Assembly (NCBI GenBank): GCA_021299695.1
Contig: JAJTEK010000004.1
Coordinates: forward strand, 1-64,000
DNA length: 64,000 nucleotides
Reading direction: 5' to 3'
Source of the DNA: Pirellula sp.
Lineage (GTDB): Bacteria > Planctomycetota > Planctomycetia > Pirellulales > Pirellulaceae
The notes below the pieces were generated by a model, which was not told where the DNA came from, searched no databases, and saw only the letters and a program-made list of their open reading frames with translations. This document shows positions 45,125 through 50,291 of this stretch, in pieces. A program made the position numbers and the translations under genes. Every line of letters starts with the position of its first letter. Within the stretch, counting starts at the first letter, position 1.

Positions 45125-47410
45125 ATGGTCGAAACCCATACAAGAACCGTCGAATTCCAGGTTCAGGGGATGACCTGCGCCGCCTGCGTTGGCCGCGTGG
45201 AACGGGCCATCGCAAAAATCCCAGATGTTCTCCAAGTGTCGGTCAATCTAGCCACCGAACGGGCTACGGTCCAATTCGATCCGAAATCCCCGGAATTAAC
45301 TGCTGCGACCATCGATCAGATCCAAGCGTCGATCGAAAACGCCGGCTACGCCGTCACACGCTTGTCGCCGACGAGGCCCCCCAACGCTTTACCTACCGAC
45401 CCCGAGTCGATTTCCTTAGGCCGCGATTTCTGGATATCCCTGCTCTTTGCCACTCCAGTCTTTCTCCTTTCCATGCTCCCGATGCTATCGAGCAGACTTA
45501 TGGAGTCGATGATGCGATGGATGAGCATGCCGCAATGGAACTGGGTGCTCTGGGCATTGGCCAGCGTCGTTCAGTTCTGGCCCGGACGGCGGTTCTATCG
45601 AAACGCTTACCATAGCATCAAAGACTTTTCGCCCGACATGAACGTCCTGGTCGTTATGGGAACGACGGCGGCCTATGGGGTCAGCTCCTTGATCACCTTT
45701 TTCCCCAATTGGCTCGGTCATAACCAACAGCATGTCTATTTCGAATCCTCTGCAGTCGTCATCTGTTTGGTGCTCCTGGGTAAATACCTCGAAGCCCGTT
45801 CCAAGCAATCGACTAGAGAGTCTCTCTATGGCTTGGCTAAACTGCAACCTCAAGATGCCCAACGCGTTGTGGATCAGCATACGCAGCGCGTGGCTATCTC
45901 AGAGATCTCCCTCGGGGATCGACTCGCCGTCTACGAGGGACAAGCCATCCCGCTCGATGGAGTGATTGAAACGGGAAGCAGTTTTGTCCAAGAAGGAATG
46001 GTCACCGGGGAACCTATCCCCAAGGAAAAAACGATCGGCGATCGGGTTATCGGCGGTACTATCAACGGCAACGGACAACTGACGATCCGAGTCACGGCTA
46101 TCGGCAATGATACGTTCCTTTCTCGTATGATGGCCATGGTCATCGAGGCGCAAGCCCACAAACCCCCGATACAGACGACCCTAGATCGTATCATTCGAAT
46201 CTTTGCTCCGAGCGTGCTGCTCATGGCCATCGCTACAGGTCTCGGATGGTGGTTGCTCAGTTCCGAATCGGCATTTGAAAAAGCTCTTGTCCATTCCGTC
46301 GCGGTGCTCGTTGTCGCTTGCCCTTGCGCACTGGGACTCGCTTCGCCTTTGAGCATGATGGTCGGAAGCGGTCGGGCCGCCGAGCTTGGAATTCTATTTC
46401 GATCTCATGAAGCGATTCAAAAGCTCGCTCGTGTCGACTCGGTCATCTTCGACAAAACCGGTACGCTGACGCTTGGCGCTCCGCTCCTGAAGGGAGTTTG
46501 GCCCATCGCCACATCGCCCCCTTCCCATAGCGAATCTGAAATACTCGGACTCGCTCGTATGGTTGCTCATTCATCGAATCACCCAATCTCCATCGCAATT
46601 CGTGAGGCGGCTCTGGAGCTTCGACCGAAAGGATTTGCAATCGAAAGCCAAGCCGTGCCCGGTAAAGGTGTGCGTGTTAAGCTCAGCGACCGGCGGGAAC
46701 TTTCTCTTGGGTCCTACTCCTGGATGGAGCAACAAGGTTTGACCAACCTGGAGTCGGACCAACTCCACCGCGAATTGTCCGCCCAAGCTTTGAGTGTCAG
46801 TTGGTTGGCCCAGGGCAAGGAGATTCTCGGTGCCCTGGGTGTCCACGACCCGCTCAAACCACAAAGCGAGTCGACGATCGCAGCGCTCAATAGGCTTGGC
46901 CTTCGCACCACCATCCTCTCGGGAGATCAATCCAACGCCGTTCGTACTGTCGCCCAGACGCTTCATGTCGAGCGATGGCACGCGGAGCAAACTCCCGAGG
47001 AAAAAGGGAAGAAAATCCAACTCTATCGCGATGGGGGCGAGACGGTGGCTTTCGTTGGGGATGGAATCAACGATGCGCCAGCCTTGGCCAGCGCCGACGT
47101 CGGAATCGCCATGGGCAATGGTTCGCAAATCGCTATATCCACCGCCGACGTGGTTCTCGCGTCGGGCTTTGTCCCACAGGTCCCACTGGCAATCGGACTG
47201 GCTCGCAGCGTCATGCGCAACATTCACCAAAATCTCTTCTGGGCATTCGGCTACAACCTGATCCTATTGCCGCTTGCCGCCGGTTGGCTCTCCCCGTGGA
47301 CCAACTGGACTTTCTCCCCAATGCTCGCTGCCCTTGCCATGGGGCTCTCGAGTTTGCTGGTCGTTGGGAATTCGTTAAGGCTTCGAGCCTACCGTGGCTT
47401 GAGTCACTAA
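45125..47410 (+). CDS. copA: Copper-type P1B-ATPase
   Basis: 761 residues. One N-terminal heavy-metal domain with MTCAAC (Cys 18 and 21), eight membrane segments expected, metal-binding CPC motif at residues 399-401 (ACPCALGLASP), MVTGEP, phosphorylation motif DKTGTLT (Asp 443), nucleotide-site SSNHPIS at about 484, and hinge GDGINDAPALASADVGIAMG. CPC with that context is typical of Cu(I) exporters in the inner membrane. Usual length is near 750-800. No copper regulator is next to it, and no clear operator was seen upstream. Its stop overlaps that of the convergent hem gene by four bases. Confidence 0.92.
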   Translation: MVETHTRTVEFQVQGMTCAACVGRVERAIAKIPDVLQVSVNLATERATVQFDPKSPELTAATIDQIQASIENAGYAVTRLSPTRPPNALPTDPESISLGRDFWISLLFATPVFLLSMLPMLSSRLMESMMRWMSMPQWNWVLWALASVVQFWPGRRFYRNAYHSIKDFSPDMNVLVVMGTTAAYGVSSLITFFPNWLGHNQQHVYFESSAVVICLVLLGKYLEARSKQSTRESLYGLAKLQPQDAQRVVDQHTQRVAISEISLGDRLAVYEGQAIPLDGVIETGSSFVQEGMVTGEPIPKEKTIGDRVIGGTINGNGQLTIRVTAIGNDTFLSRMMAMVIEAQAHKPPIQTTLDRIIRIFAPSVLLMAIATGLGWWLLSSESAFEKALVHSVAVLVVACPCALGLASPLSMMVGSGRAAELGILFRSHEAIQKLARVDSVIFDKTGTLTLGAPLLKGVWPIATSPPSHSESEILGLARMVAHSSNHPISIAIREAALELRPKGFAIESQAVPGKGVRVKLSDRRELSLGSYSWMEQQGLTNLESDQLHRELSAQALSVSWLAQGKEILGALGVHDPLKPQSESTIAALNRLGLRTTILSGDQSNAVRTVAQTLHVERWHAEQTPEEKGKKIQLYRDGGETVAFVGDGINDAPALASADVGIAMGNGSQIAISTADVVLASGFVPQVPLAIGLARSVMRNIHQNLFWAFGYNLILLPLAAGWLSPWTNWTFSPMLAALAMGLSSLLVVGNSLRLRAYRGLSH

Positions 47411-49371
47411 CTTCTTCGATCGGTCATTTCGTGGACCATATCGACCAATGCGATCACGTGGTCGACCGGGGTACCTGGCAGGATGCCATGTCCGAGGTTA
47501 AAGATGTGGCCGGCTCGTCCTGCGGCCAAATCCAATACGTCCTTGGCATGCTTACGAATCGTATCGATTCCTGCGAAAAGTATCGTCGGGTCGAGGTTCC
47601 CTTGAACCGCTCTATCTGGGCCTGCCATGTCCCAACCGACATCGAGTGACACTCGCCAATCGATCCCTACGACGGTTCGGGAATCCCCTCGCAGGCAGGA
47701 AATGAGCATCGGGTTTCCGGTCGCGAAATTGATTACCGGTACGTTCGGAATGATCGACTCGAGGAGCCGCTGCATGTGCGGCAAGATATTAGTGCGGTAA
47801 TCGTTTGGAGAGAGGCAACCAGCCCAGGAATCGAAAAGCTGAACGACCTGTGCTCCGGCGACAATCTGCGAGTTCAAGTAGAGCGAAATCGAATGAACAA
47901 GTTTGTCCATCAAGATATTCCAAGCGCTCGGATCGTTGGCCATCAACGACTTGGTATGGAGAAAGTTGCGAGATGATCCCCCTTCGATCATGTAGCTTGC
48001 CAGTGTAAAGGGGGAACCCGAGAAGCCGATCACCGGGATTCGCTCCGGCAGTGCCCGGCGGGTCTGTTCGACGGTCTGTGTGACGAAGCTTAAGGCATCC
48101 ATCGACTCGAGCCTTGCGACTCGGTCGATATCTTTAGCTTGGCGTATCGGGTTATGGATCACCGGTCCATCTCCCTGGGTAAACTCTAGATCGAAACCCA
48201 TCGGTTCGAGAATCGGCAATAGGTCTGAGAAAATGATCGCCGCGTCGACTCCGAGTTTTTCGACGGCCGTGACCATGACCTCGGCGCATAGACTGGGGTT
48301 TTTACAAAGCTCCAAAAAGGAGACTTTTTCTCTCACTGCACGGTACTCTGCCATGTACCGACCTGCTTGACGCATCAACCAAATCGGCGTGACATCGGAT
48401 GCTTGCCGATAGCAGGCTTTGAGGAATGGGCTCTGGGAGAGACTCTCCCCGAGCCGTCCGAGTTTCTCCTTGGCCGTACCGCTTGTGCTCGATGGCAGGA
48501 CCGCTGCAGTAAACCGCTTGGCCTTGAGAATTCGATGGCATTTCTCCGAAGTTTGTTGAACGAGTTGCCCCATCTTGTTCGGGCTCGCCTCGAGGTCCAC
48601 GGGCAAGTTCAAGTGCTGGAGCATTTCCGAAGTTGTCGGCCCGATCGATGCGACGACCAGACGGTCCATTGCGGTTCGAAGTTCCGACTCGCACCCGAGT
48701 TTCTCGGCCATGCGGAGCAAATTAACTGCCTGATGGGCGCTGGTGAACATCAGGACATCCTGTTTGCCTTGGCAGATCGATTCGATATTCTTTTGGAGCG
48801 GCTCGGTGTCCTCTGGAAAATCCCATTGGTAGACCTTCACGCTCAGGACGTTGGCTCCTCGCGCTTCGAGACCGGCAACCAGGGAATGATTCGTCACACC
48901 GTATTCCTGAAGTCCTATGGTCAAGTTCGAAACCGGGATGTTCTGATCGATCAACTGGAGGACTTCGCGCCAGGTATTCGGTTCAGGTGCGCGAAAGCTA
49001 GGCTGAAGTCCCACTTCTCGCATCGCCGCTACGGGCTTAGGGCCTCGCGCGATGGTGATAATGTCTGAAAGGGAATTCAAAAGCCGCTGCCGATCGACAT
49101 GCTTTTCAACGGTCGAGAGGAAATGCTTGAAACCAACCCCTGTAAGGAAGATCACCAAACCGATTTCGCCGGTGATGATTCGATAGGCAAAGTCGACGGC
49201 CTCTTTGTTCTTGTCGATCGGCAGTTCTCTCATCGAAGGGCTGACGGTGGGCGTTCCACCAAAGCGCTCGATAAGCCTTGCAAACTCATCGCGGCGTCGA
49301 CTCTCCAGAGCGCTGACGCGAAGACCGTGGAAATTCGGTTCGGACCTGGAGGGTTCACTGGAGTCGGTCAT
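47407..49371 (-). CDS. hemDE: Fused uroporphyrinogen-III synthase and uroporphyrinogen decarboxylase (HemD-HemE)
   Basis: 654 residues from ATG 49371; the longer frame to 49638 runs into the upstream reductase gene and is rejected. Residues 10-285 form a HemD-type domain (GLRVSALESRRRDEFARLIE, VIFLTGVGFKHF, LMFTSAHQAVNLL, ASIGPTTSEML). Residues 313-654 are a complete HemE: PFLKACYRQ, IWLMRQAGRYMAEY (Arg 334 and 338), FSDLLPILEPMG (Asp 383), FDSWAGCLS, WRVSLDVGWDM, VQGNLDPTIL and FNLGHGI. Together they convert hydroxymethylbilane to uroporphyrinogen III and then to coproporphyrinogen III. It follows the GarR-like gene by 23 bases. Rare fusion; no frameshift or stop in the linker (about 286-312). 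Confidence 0.88.
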   Translation of the reverse strand: MTDSSEPSRSEPNFHGLRVSALESRRRDEFARLIERFGGTPTVSPSMRELPIDKNKEAVDFAYRIITGEIGLVIFLTGVGFKHFLSTVEKHVDRQRLLNSLSDIITIARGPKPVAAMREVGLQPSFRAPEPNTWREVLQLIDQNIPVSNLTIGLQEYGVTNHSLVAGLEARGANVLSVKVYQWDFPEDTEPLQKNIESICQGKQDVLMFTSAHQAVNLLRMAEKLGCESELRTAMDRLVVASIGPTTSEMLQHLNLPVDLEASPNKMGQLVQQTSEKCHRILKAKRFTAAVLPSSTSGTAKEKLGRLGESLSQSPFLKACYRQASDVTPIWLMRQAGRYMAEYRAVREKVSFLELCKNPSLCAEVMVTAVEKLGVDAAIIFSDLLPILEPMGFDLEFTQGDGPVIHNPIRQAKDIDRVARLESMDALSFVTQTVEQTRRALPERIPVIGFSGSPFTLASYMIEGGSSRNFLHTKSLMANDPSAWNILMDKLVHSISLYLNSQIVAGAQVVQLFDSWAGCLSPNDYRTNILPHMQRLLESIIPNVPVINFATGNPMLISCLRGDSRTVVGIDWRVSLDVGWDMAGPDRAVQGNLDPTILFAGIDTIRKHAKDVLDLAAGRAGHIFNLGHGILPGTPVDHVIALVDMVHEMTDRRS

Positions 49372-49394: not shown

Positions 49395-50291
49395 CTAGCG
49401 TGTGTGGTTGGAGAGTCGTTCGAGTACTTTGGCAAGCGCATGGATCCCCTCGGATCCATGGCCGTAGACCTGGGCGCTGCGCCAAAGTTGTGTTACCAGT
49501 GCGGATCCAGGGAGCGATACATTGGCCTTTTCGGCGGACTGCGCGACTAATCGCATGTCCTTTTGCTGGGTGTCGACCATAAACCCTGGACTCCAATCCC
49601 CGGCACAGATTTTTGGACCTAAATTCTGCAATGCCCAACTCGCTGCGGCCCCCGCCCCCAAAGCCTCAATGAGAATCTTCGGATCGATTTGGAGTCCACG
49701 GGCCAACGACATCGCTTCGCATACCCCGAGCAGATTCATTGCCCCCATGATCTGGTTGCAAAGCTTGACCCCTTGTCCAGCTCCCAAAGGTCCGCAGTGG
49801 GTGATCGTCTTGCCCATCGCCTCAAAGATCCCACGAGCCGCGTTGAAATCGTACTCGCTTCCCCCTACCAAGATGCTCAATGTTCCATTCTGAGCTCCGA
49901 GGGTGCCACCGGTAACAGGAGCTTCGAGGTAACGAAATCCACCCGCGGCGAGTCGATCGCCTAATCCCAAGGATGCGCTCGGCGCGATGGTGCTCATGTC
50001 GATGAACAAGGTTCCTGGGGCTGCACCTTCGACCGCGCCGCTTTCCCCAAAGAAAACCTGCTCGACATCCGGACCATCGGTCAGGCAACTGATGACCACC
50101 TCGACCCCTTGAGTCGCTTGGCTTGGAGTGTCAAAAGCAACTGCTCCAGCCTTGACCGCATCGTGCGTTTTGGCCTTCGTCCGGTTGTAAACTTGGACAC
50201 GATACCCGGCTTTGAGCAGATTGCAGGACATGCGGGTCCCCATCAATCCCATTCCCAAAAAGGCCACGCCCTGCGATTGAGTACCGCTCAT
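49395..50291 (-). CDS. 3-hydroxyisobutyrate/2-hydroxy-3-oxopropionate reductase family oxidoreductase
   Basis: 298 residues, the typical beta-hydroxyacid dehydrogenase length. N-terminal Rossmann nucleotide loop GVAFLGMGLMGTRMS (about 8-22), Asn-Arg-Thr after it (VQVYNRTKAK, suggesting NADP), substrate loop YLEAPVTGGTLGA (about 119-131), catalytic Lys in GQGVKLCNQIMGA (about 172), and C-terminal helix signature FMVDTQQKDMRL. It reduces tartronate semialdehyde or a similar beta-keto acid in the cytoplasm; exact substrate is not determinable. Upstream of the hem fusion on the same strand and divergent from nagB. Confidence 0.88.
   Translation of the reverse strand: MSGTQSQGVAFLGMGLMGTRMSCNLLKAGYRVQVYNRTKAKTHDAVKAGAVAFDTPSQATQGVEVVISCLTDGPDVEQVFFGESGAVEGAAPGTLFIDMSTIAPSASLGLGDRLAAGGFRYLEAPVTGGTLGAQNGTLSILVGGSEYDFNAARGIFEAMGKTITHCGPLGAGQGVKLCNQIMGAMNLLGVCEAMSLARGLQIDPKILIEALGAGAAASWALQNLGPKICAGDWSPGFMVDTQQKDMRLVAQSAEKANVSLPGSALVTQLWRSAQVYGHGSEGIHALAKVLERLSNHTR

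Follow-up and report, generated by a model that had tools for sequence, protein, structure and literature searches.

The routes to heme and to siroheme/B12 diverge at uroporphyrinogen III, and the enzyme that makes this intermediate, uroporphyrinogen-III synthase (U3S, HemD), is already known to occur fused to neighbouring enzymes. CobA-HemD fusions are known in other organisms (PMC4921024, Table 3), and both CobA-HemD and HemC with CobA-HemD have been described (PMC11237513). Here we examine 64,000 nucleotides of a Pirellula sp. genome (GenBank assembly GCA_021299695.1, contig JAJTEK010000004.1, positions 1 to 64,000; hereafter the window), in which a single gene carries HemD together with HemE, uroporphyrinogen decarboxylase (UroD). 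This fusion is probably a bifunctional enzyme for two consecutive steps, with both halves active, that would give heme its own HemD.

Like CobA-HemD, which is present in the same genome, the fusion places HemD in one chain with a consumer of its product, uroporphyrinogen III. In CobA-HemD, however, the siroheme/B12 partner lies N-terminal of a HemD that belongs to another subtype (<55 against >150 bits with the subtype model described below), whereas here the heme-branch partner lies C-terminal. HemC-HemD (PMC4921024, Table 3) likewise links HemD with an adjoining enzyme of the pathway, but there the partner is the enzyme that precedes HemD and here it is the one that follows. With stand-alone HemE (TIGR01464) the HemE half shares the fold and the passing of the equivalog cut-off, but the fusion protein adds an N-terminal HemD domain. 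The curated model closest to the HemD half is PRK07239, which we take to be the actinobacterial HemD-plus-DNA-binding type (NnaR); the fusion resembles these regulators in that match, but it stays below the model's cut-off, has no DNA-binding domain and differs in architecture and partner. The HemD-HemE pairing itself may well be undescribed, though database annotations may show the architecture: we found no description in the open-access literature, in a search that could not separate hemE from heme; the pairing is missing from Table 3 of PMC4921024, which is a selection; and the available part of PMC11237513 names none in Archaea. The suggestion of an earlier note on this DNA, that the pairing joins two consecutive steps of the heme pathway and is not a common one, agrees with this.

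One reading frame for HemD and HemE

The earlier note had described one uninterrupted frame, and this is what translation of the window gives: from an ATG at 49371 to a stop codon at 47407-47409 there are 654 amino acids (aa) with no internal stop, and neither a stop nor a frameshift falls in the linker (coordinates in Table 1). An in-frame TTG at 49638, upstream of the ATG, would extend the frame to 743 aa; the ATG is the likely start codon because the preceding gene ends at 49395. By Pfam the protein consists of HEM4 and URO-D only, a DNA-binding domain and TP_methylase (PF00590) both being absent. HEM4 (PF02602) matches residues 28-272 at 134.5 bits against a cut-off of 27.5 and is aligned over positions 1-231 of its 231-position profile, in the region (about residues 10-285) where HemD had been predicted. 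URO-D (PF01208) covers residues 313-648 at 390.3 bits (cut-off 23.9), and the HemE half also exceeds the cut-off of the NCBIfam hemE equivalog TIGR01464 (385.9 against 302.95 bits), which bears out the prediction of a complete HemE at 313-654. The four motifs on which that prediction drew, MRQAGRYM, FSDLL, VQGNLDP and LGHGI, are present in the translation, and their cores are invariant in an alignment of 29 fused proteins. The same 29 proteins retain all seven of R334, R338, R347, D383, Y460, S515 and H628, which, mapped by eye, presumably correspond to R37, R41, R50, D86, Y164, S219 and H339 of human UroD.

In the HemD half, twelve positions that were picked for invariance in the fused alignment (T77, G78, G80, G110, K112, W134, Y181, P186, T210, S242, G244 and P245) are also unchanged in 14 of 14 aligned separate HemDs of the same subtype, and it may be that they line the active cleft. 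Read by eye against U3S of Thermus thermophilus, eight of the twelve match, while W134, T210, S242 and P245 differ; Y181 aligns with a tyrosine of that enzyme and is, we assume, the counterpart of Tyr168 in human U3S. The half falls below every NCBIfam U3S equivalog cut-off, with 146.9 bits for PRK07239 (cut-off 273) and 112.3 bits for PRK05928.2-1 (cut-off 233). These cut-offs are likewise missed by all seven other HemD-bearing proteins scored, so the narrow NCBIfam U3S models do not cover the group.

A structure model built from the 29 fused proteins had a mean pLDDT (predicted local distance difference test) of 86.3 and a pTM (predicted template modelling score) of 0.64, with pLDDT <50 at linker residues 292-302. 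In Foldseek the HemE half matched UroD structures, 6w2o among them, with a target TM-score (TMt) of about 0.90, and the HemD half matched, with a probability of 1.00, 1wcx (TMt 0.71), 3re1_B (0.70), 1jr2 (0.67) and 3d8r (0.59); the U3S matches ranked best by E-value had TMt of 0.52-0.59 and a root-mean-square deviation of 6-8. As modelled, the HemD half has the two-lobed U3S fold. Among solved structures the HemE half comes nearest by sequence to UroD chains, and the HemD half to those of T. thermophilus U3S, the sole ones that it matched in this way.

Codon comparisons with relatives gave the highest nonsynonymous divergence (dN) at residues 287-312 in each of 13 pairs. Two of the pairs had a synonymous divergence (dS) that was clearly usable for HemD and HemE alike. 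In the pair with L006, dN and dS were 0.047 and 1.02 for HemD and 0.028 and 0.67 for HemE, with a linker dN of 0.113; in the pair with L005 they were 0.011 and 0.232 for HemD and 0.012 and 0.421 for HemE, with a linker dN of 0.036. These values point to purifying selection on both domains and a freer linker.

Fused and separate forms among relatives

In the main search (99 genomes, our own included, one per species, counted by hand) both domains lay in one aligned stretch in 75 genomes, eight of which are single-contig assemblies. The rows of G074, G029 and G056 have one stop each, but the frame before the stop holds both domains (L030, L222 and L221, respectively), and G042 and G070 are fused too, with a longer linker. 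The match was broken up or truncated at contig ends in five genomes (G080, G010, G003, G016 and G025), consisted of fragments or was weak in five (G092, G055, G086, G004 and G093), and was absent in another five. An apparent fission in G080 was rejected because HemD and HemE each stop at a contig end, as were apparent breaks in G016, G025 and G086, where the sequences leave contig ends; what leaves the contig in G086 is a fused frame. Unfused genes were found in seven genomes: in G069 hemD and hemE are adjacent, overlapping frames, in G084, G067, G079, G098 and G076 HemE is alone, and in G052 a separate HemE lies 1.8 kb after a weak HemD-like frame.

Among the matches listed in a class-wide search of 397 genomes, many fused genomes were spread through the window's order, and HemE was alone in families f8 (except G571), f17 and f20; G615 and G728, of the window's own family, had no match in this search. 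The f21 genomes examined have hemD and hemE separate, with hemD just upstream of hemE at ten loci (L100, L101, L102, L129 and L191-L196) and the two not within about 3 kb of each other at further ones (for example L103-L105 and L130-L133). Six f21 genomes with long frames (G215, G240, G298, G421, G260 and G280) were considered as fusion candidates and discarded, the frames being separate and 48-99 bases apart. Most f22 genomes examined also have separate genes, G500 and G490 being fused. A phylum-wide search of 393 genomes added, among the matches listed, one 664-aa fusion from beyond the class (G155), and a scan of genome contigs gave 36 loci, 21 with both domains clearly in one frame and one, L096, partly so (it contains unread bases). 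In every fused case examined HemD is N-terminal of HemE. The best matches in f23, f93 and f94 were weak (E about 1e-37 to 1e-51, against mostly 1e-110 or better in f21 and f22), and HemE of these families may be of another kind.

Neighbouring unfused pairs such as those of f21 are what an assembly artefact would need, that is, adjacent genes joined through a missing stop or a frameshift. Yet the same arrangement recurs in 75 of 99 genomes from as many species, the eight single-contig assemblies included; both domains share one frame in 30 of 30 loci taken from the best matches (L004-L033); and the fusion is found in named records that include Pirellula, Roseimaritima, Botrimarina and Adhaeretor. 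The relatives rule out a sequencing or assembly artefact, to which we give next to no credence. As to whether related genomes are fused or separate, a check proposed in the earlier note, the answer is divided: the fusion is widespread but not universal.

A second HemD and the role of the fused one

In our genome, a 95% complete assembly of 5.49 Mb and 229 contigs, the fusion is the only URO-D locus and one of two HEM4 loci. The second HEM4 is part of a CobA-HemD protein of 511 aa (L002:1465-3000, contig C110) in which TP_methylase (PF00590) is present. The search for further copies that had been advised thus came out differently for the two enzymes, with no second HemE but a second HemD, and the question becomes why each branch has a HemD of its own. 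HemC and ferrochelatase occur once each, so a heme pathway is plausible in this genome. With HEM4 the HemD domain of L002 reaches only about 130 bits, where many relatives reach about 200; the domain may be drifting in this genome.

A hidden Markov model (HMM) made from the fused-type HemD and its near relatives sorted the HemDs into two subtypes, one fused to HemE or stand-alone (>150 bits) and the other that of CobA-HemD (<55 bits). A CobA domain was found in all five HEM4 proteins checked for it (L002, L147, L152, L165 and L164). The stand-alone HemDs of f23, f24 and f93 (n=3) score 158-180 bits, are widely separated on the tree and could represent a third kind.

The fusion and a second HEM4 locus tend to occur together. 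At least two HEM4 loci were found in 35 of 40 sampled genomes of the order, namely 34 with the fusion (30 as one aligned row, and G256, G302, G431 and G473 as confirmed single frames) and G080, which is split by contig ends; the remaining five (G076, G092, G348, G079 and G067) have a single HEM4 and an unfused HemE, in pieces in G092. A hand count over 297 genomes of the order gave, for f8, f17 and f20 together, one locus in 75 of 81 genomes, at least two in four and none in two, and for all other families at least two in 203 of 216, one in 11 and none in two. At least eight f17 genomes (G579, G723, G727, G757, G782, G788, G791 and G800) have a HEM4 frame of 270-331 aa as the sole one listed; this is too short for CobA-HemD, so HemD may stand alone in these genomes, or a contig end may have truncated it.

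Genus g329 offers a case in which the fused HemD appears to be on its way out. In two of its genomes, G719 and G706, CobA is encoded by a separate frame (277 and 290 aa) and a free HemD of the other subtype is also present; ten further members have a CobA frame of 266-375 aa (seven), one of 563 aa (one) or no match (two). The fused HemD of the two genomes (L138:2194-4116 and L185:2090-4054) is without Y181, K112, T210 and others, while HemE is intact. Identity between the two proteins is 41% in the HemD half and 86% in the HemE half, and the ratio of HemD to HemE distance is 4.19, as compared with 0.90-2.53 in ten other pairs, two of which include one g329 member. This loss of residues and fast divergence beside a free HemD suggest that, as far as these two copies go, the presence of a free HemD goes along with decay of the fused one.

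We favour the bifunctional reading because both domains are complete and conserved, a second HemD is present, the number of HEM4 loci goes with fusion, and the fused HemD decays in g329. The N-terminal HemD domain would close hydroxymethylbilane to uroporphyrinogen III and the C-terminal HemE domain would decarboxylate this to coproporphyrinogen III, so that the fused HemD would be the heme-branch copy and CobA-HemD the copy for the siroheme/B12 branch. Several observations weigh against this reading. The division of labour is not obligatory, since 75 of the 81 f8, f17 and f20 genomes have one HEM4; HemE of these families is unfused where listed, and the two HEM4 proteins checked there, L147 and L165, are intact CobA-HemD. 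HemD of the fused subtype occurs apart from HemE in f21 and part of f22, and the f22 genomes G386, G488 and G508 have one HEM4 and an unfused HemE. G571, the single fused genome seen in f8 (L112:2624-4693), a family otherwise with HemE alone where listed, has a partly eroded fused HemD although a HEM4 frame of 521 aa is also present. In view of the single-HEM4 genomes of f8 and f17 and of G571, dedication of a HemD to a branch is a tendency, not a rule. Five fused genomes (G020, G682, G039, G047 and G086, the fusion of the last leaving its contig) have a single HEM4, as would be expected of a catalytic HemD, but G682, G047 and G086 also hold a short CobA frame or fragment, two of these close to a contig start, which makes a lost CobA-HemD end likely. 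The five were therefore rejected as proof of catalysis, contig breaks or draft gaps being likely in these three and possible in G020 and G039. Lastly, the curated HemD model nearest to the fused half is PRK07239, and the HemD of NnaR from Streptomyces coelicolor is reported to be catalytically inactive (PMC11162112).

The nearness to PRK07239 and the reported inactivity of the NnaR HemD would also suit a fused HemD that is a noncatalytic sensing or docking domain, binding hydroxymethylbilane or uroporphyrinogen and tuning HemE while CobA-HemD does the synthesis. That f8, f17 and f20 tolerate the absence of a fused-type HemD, and that an eroded HemD domain persists in g329, could be read in the same way. 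We nonetheless think a sensing role improbable: the twelve chosen positions are conserved whether HemD is fused or separate, with eight of them shared by T. thermophilus U3S, their conservation in the stand-alone form speaks for an independent activity, and in the drafts G020 and G039, where gaps are possible, the fusion is the sole HEM4 and no CobA was found. A plainer alternative leaves both halves active but has the fusion do no more than keep them in equal amounts, with neither channelling nor sorting of flux and the second HemD as a leftover. The f21 genomes, where HemD of this subtype and HemE are separate proteins whose genes often show no linkage over the stretches fetched, fit such co-expression, as do the single HEM4 locus that suffices for most f8, f17 and f20 genomes and a linker that is variable and poorly ordered, so that fixed docking is not evident. 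On the other hand, fusion coincides with a second HEM4 locus in the 40 sampled genomes, and the fused HemD has decayed in two g329 copies where a free HemD exists, both of which suggest that it matters who supplies whom. Plain co-expression is nevertheless a serious candidate, if somewhat short of an even chance.

The bifunctional reading can be carried one step further. Each branch would then own a HemD fused to its first committed enzyme and passing uroporphyrinogen III to it directly, so that the branch point is shifted one step upstream. If so, flux to heme or to siroheme/B12 would be set by which HemD captures hydroxymethylbilane and would not depend on competition for free uroporphyrinogen III. 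The pairing of the HemDs and the decay in g329 favour this extension, but the families with a single CobA-HemD do not; we put it forward tentatively, as rather doubtful. The earlier note had likewise supposed that fusing the two enzymes would channel the unstable uroporphyrinogen III, but fusion as such is reported not to have promoted channelling (PMC4921024). In any case, cells in which each branch enzyme carries its own fused HemD provide a natural test of whether fusion controls branch flux, and the group supplies its own controls in the fused, adjacent, unlinked and lost states and in a genus with a decaying fused HemD. If both halves are active, a natural HemD-HemE could also be useful for engineering heme production.

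Surroundings and origin of the fusion gene

The fusion gene and its convergent neighbour, a heavy-metal P-type ATPase gene, overlap by 4 bases at their 3' ends (Table 1). On the other side, a 3-hydroxyisobutyrate-dehydrogenase-type gene on the strand of the fusion ends 23 bases before the fusion's ATG, and within the window no heme genes adjoin the fusion. Many of the loci L064-L189 are too short to show neighbours. Nine of them have a match to the dehydrogenase and five have one to the ATPase, in every case next to a close relative of the window protein, and the neighbours are therefore of little help as to function.

Table 1. Positions in the window of the fusion gene, its parts and the adjoining genes
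Feature	Position	Strand	Basis and remarks
hemD-hemE fusion gene	47407..49371	minus	654 aa plus stop; single open frame, Pfam and NCBIfam matches
HemD (uroporphyrinogen-III synthase, HEM4) domain	48556..49290	minus	residues 28-272; Pfam PF02602, sequence and fold matches to U3S
Linker	48436..48555	minus	residues 273-312; end of long helix, then low-confidence stretch 292-302
HemE (uroporphyrinogen decarboxylase, URO-D) domain	47428..48435	minus	residues 313-648; PF01208, TIGR01464, fold match
Heavy-metal P-type ATPase gene, convergent neighbour	45125..47410	plus	Pfam E1-E2_ATPase, HMA; not part of fusion
3-Hydroxyisobutyrate-dehydrogenase-type gene	49395..50291	minus	Pfam NAD_binding_2, NAD_binding_11

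Quick trees of HemE (65 rows) and HemD (49 rows), with many weak forks, follow taxonomy and place the fusions of the window's order in one group. Within this group the HemE tree also has the unfused rows of f8, of f20 and of most of f17, the f17 row L116 lying outside; in the HemD tree the eroded f8 fusion L112 has a very long branch and does not belong to the group of the order. The f22 fusions fall among f22 rows and the f21 pairs form a group of their own. We also considered whether f22 acquired the fusion from the window's order by horizontal transfer; the trees do not support this, since the HemD and the HemE of the f22 fusions both cluster with unfused rows of f22. Adjacent hemD and hemE genes, such as still exist in some f21 genomes, were probably joined to give the fusion. 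Given the weak forks, a single old fusion is indistinguishable from repeated fusion: the sequences are compatible with an early fusion followed by splits and losses, or with two or three independent joinings of neighbouring genes.

Adjacent hemD and hemE genes that group with f22 were also seen in three metagenome-assembled genome records labelled Candidatus Kuenenia stuttgartiensis (L085, L092 and L099), labels that may be wrong. A stand-alone HemD in a Terriglobia (Acidobacteriota) record (L098:2995-3816) is 45% identical and belongs to the subtype found in the fusion, an indication that this subtype predates the fusion.

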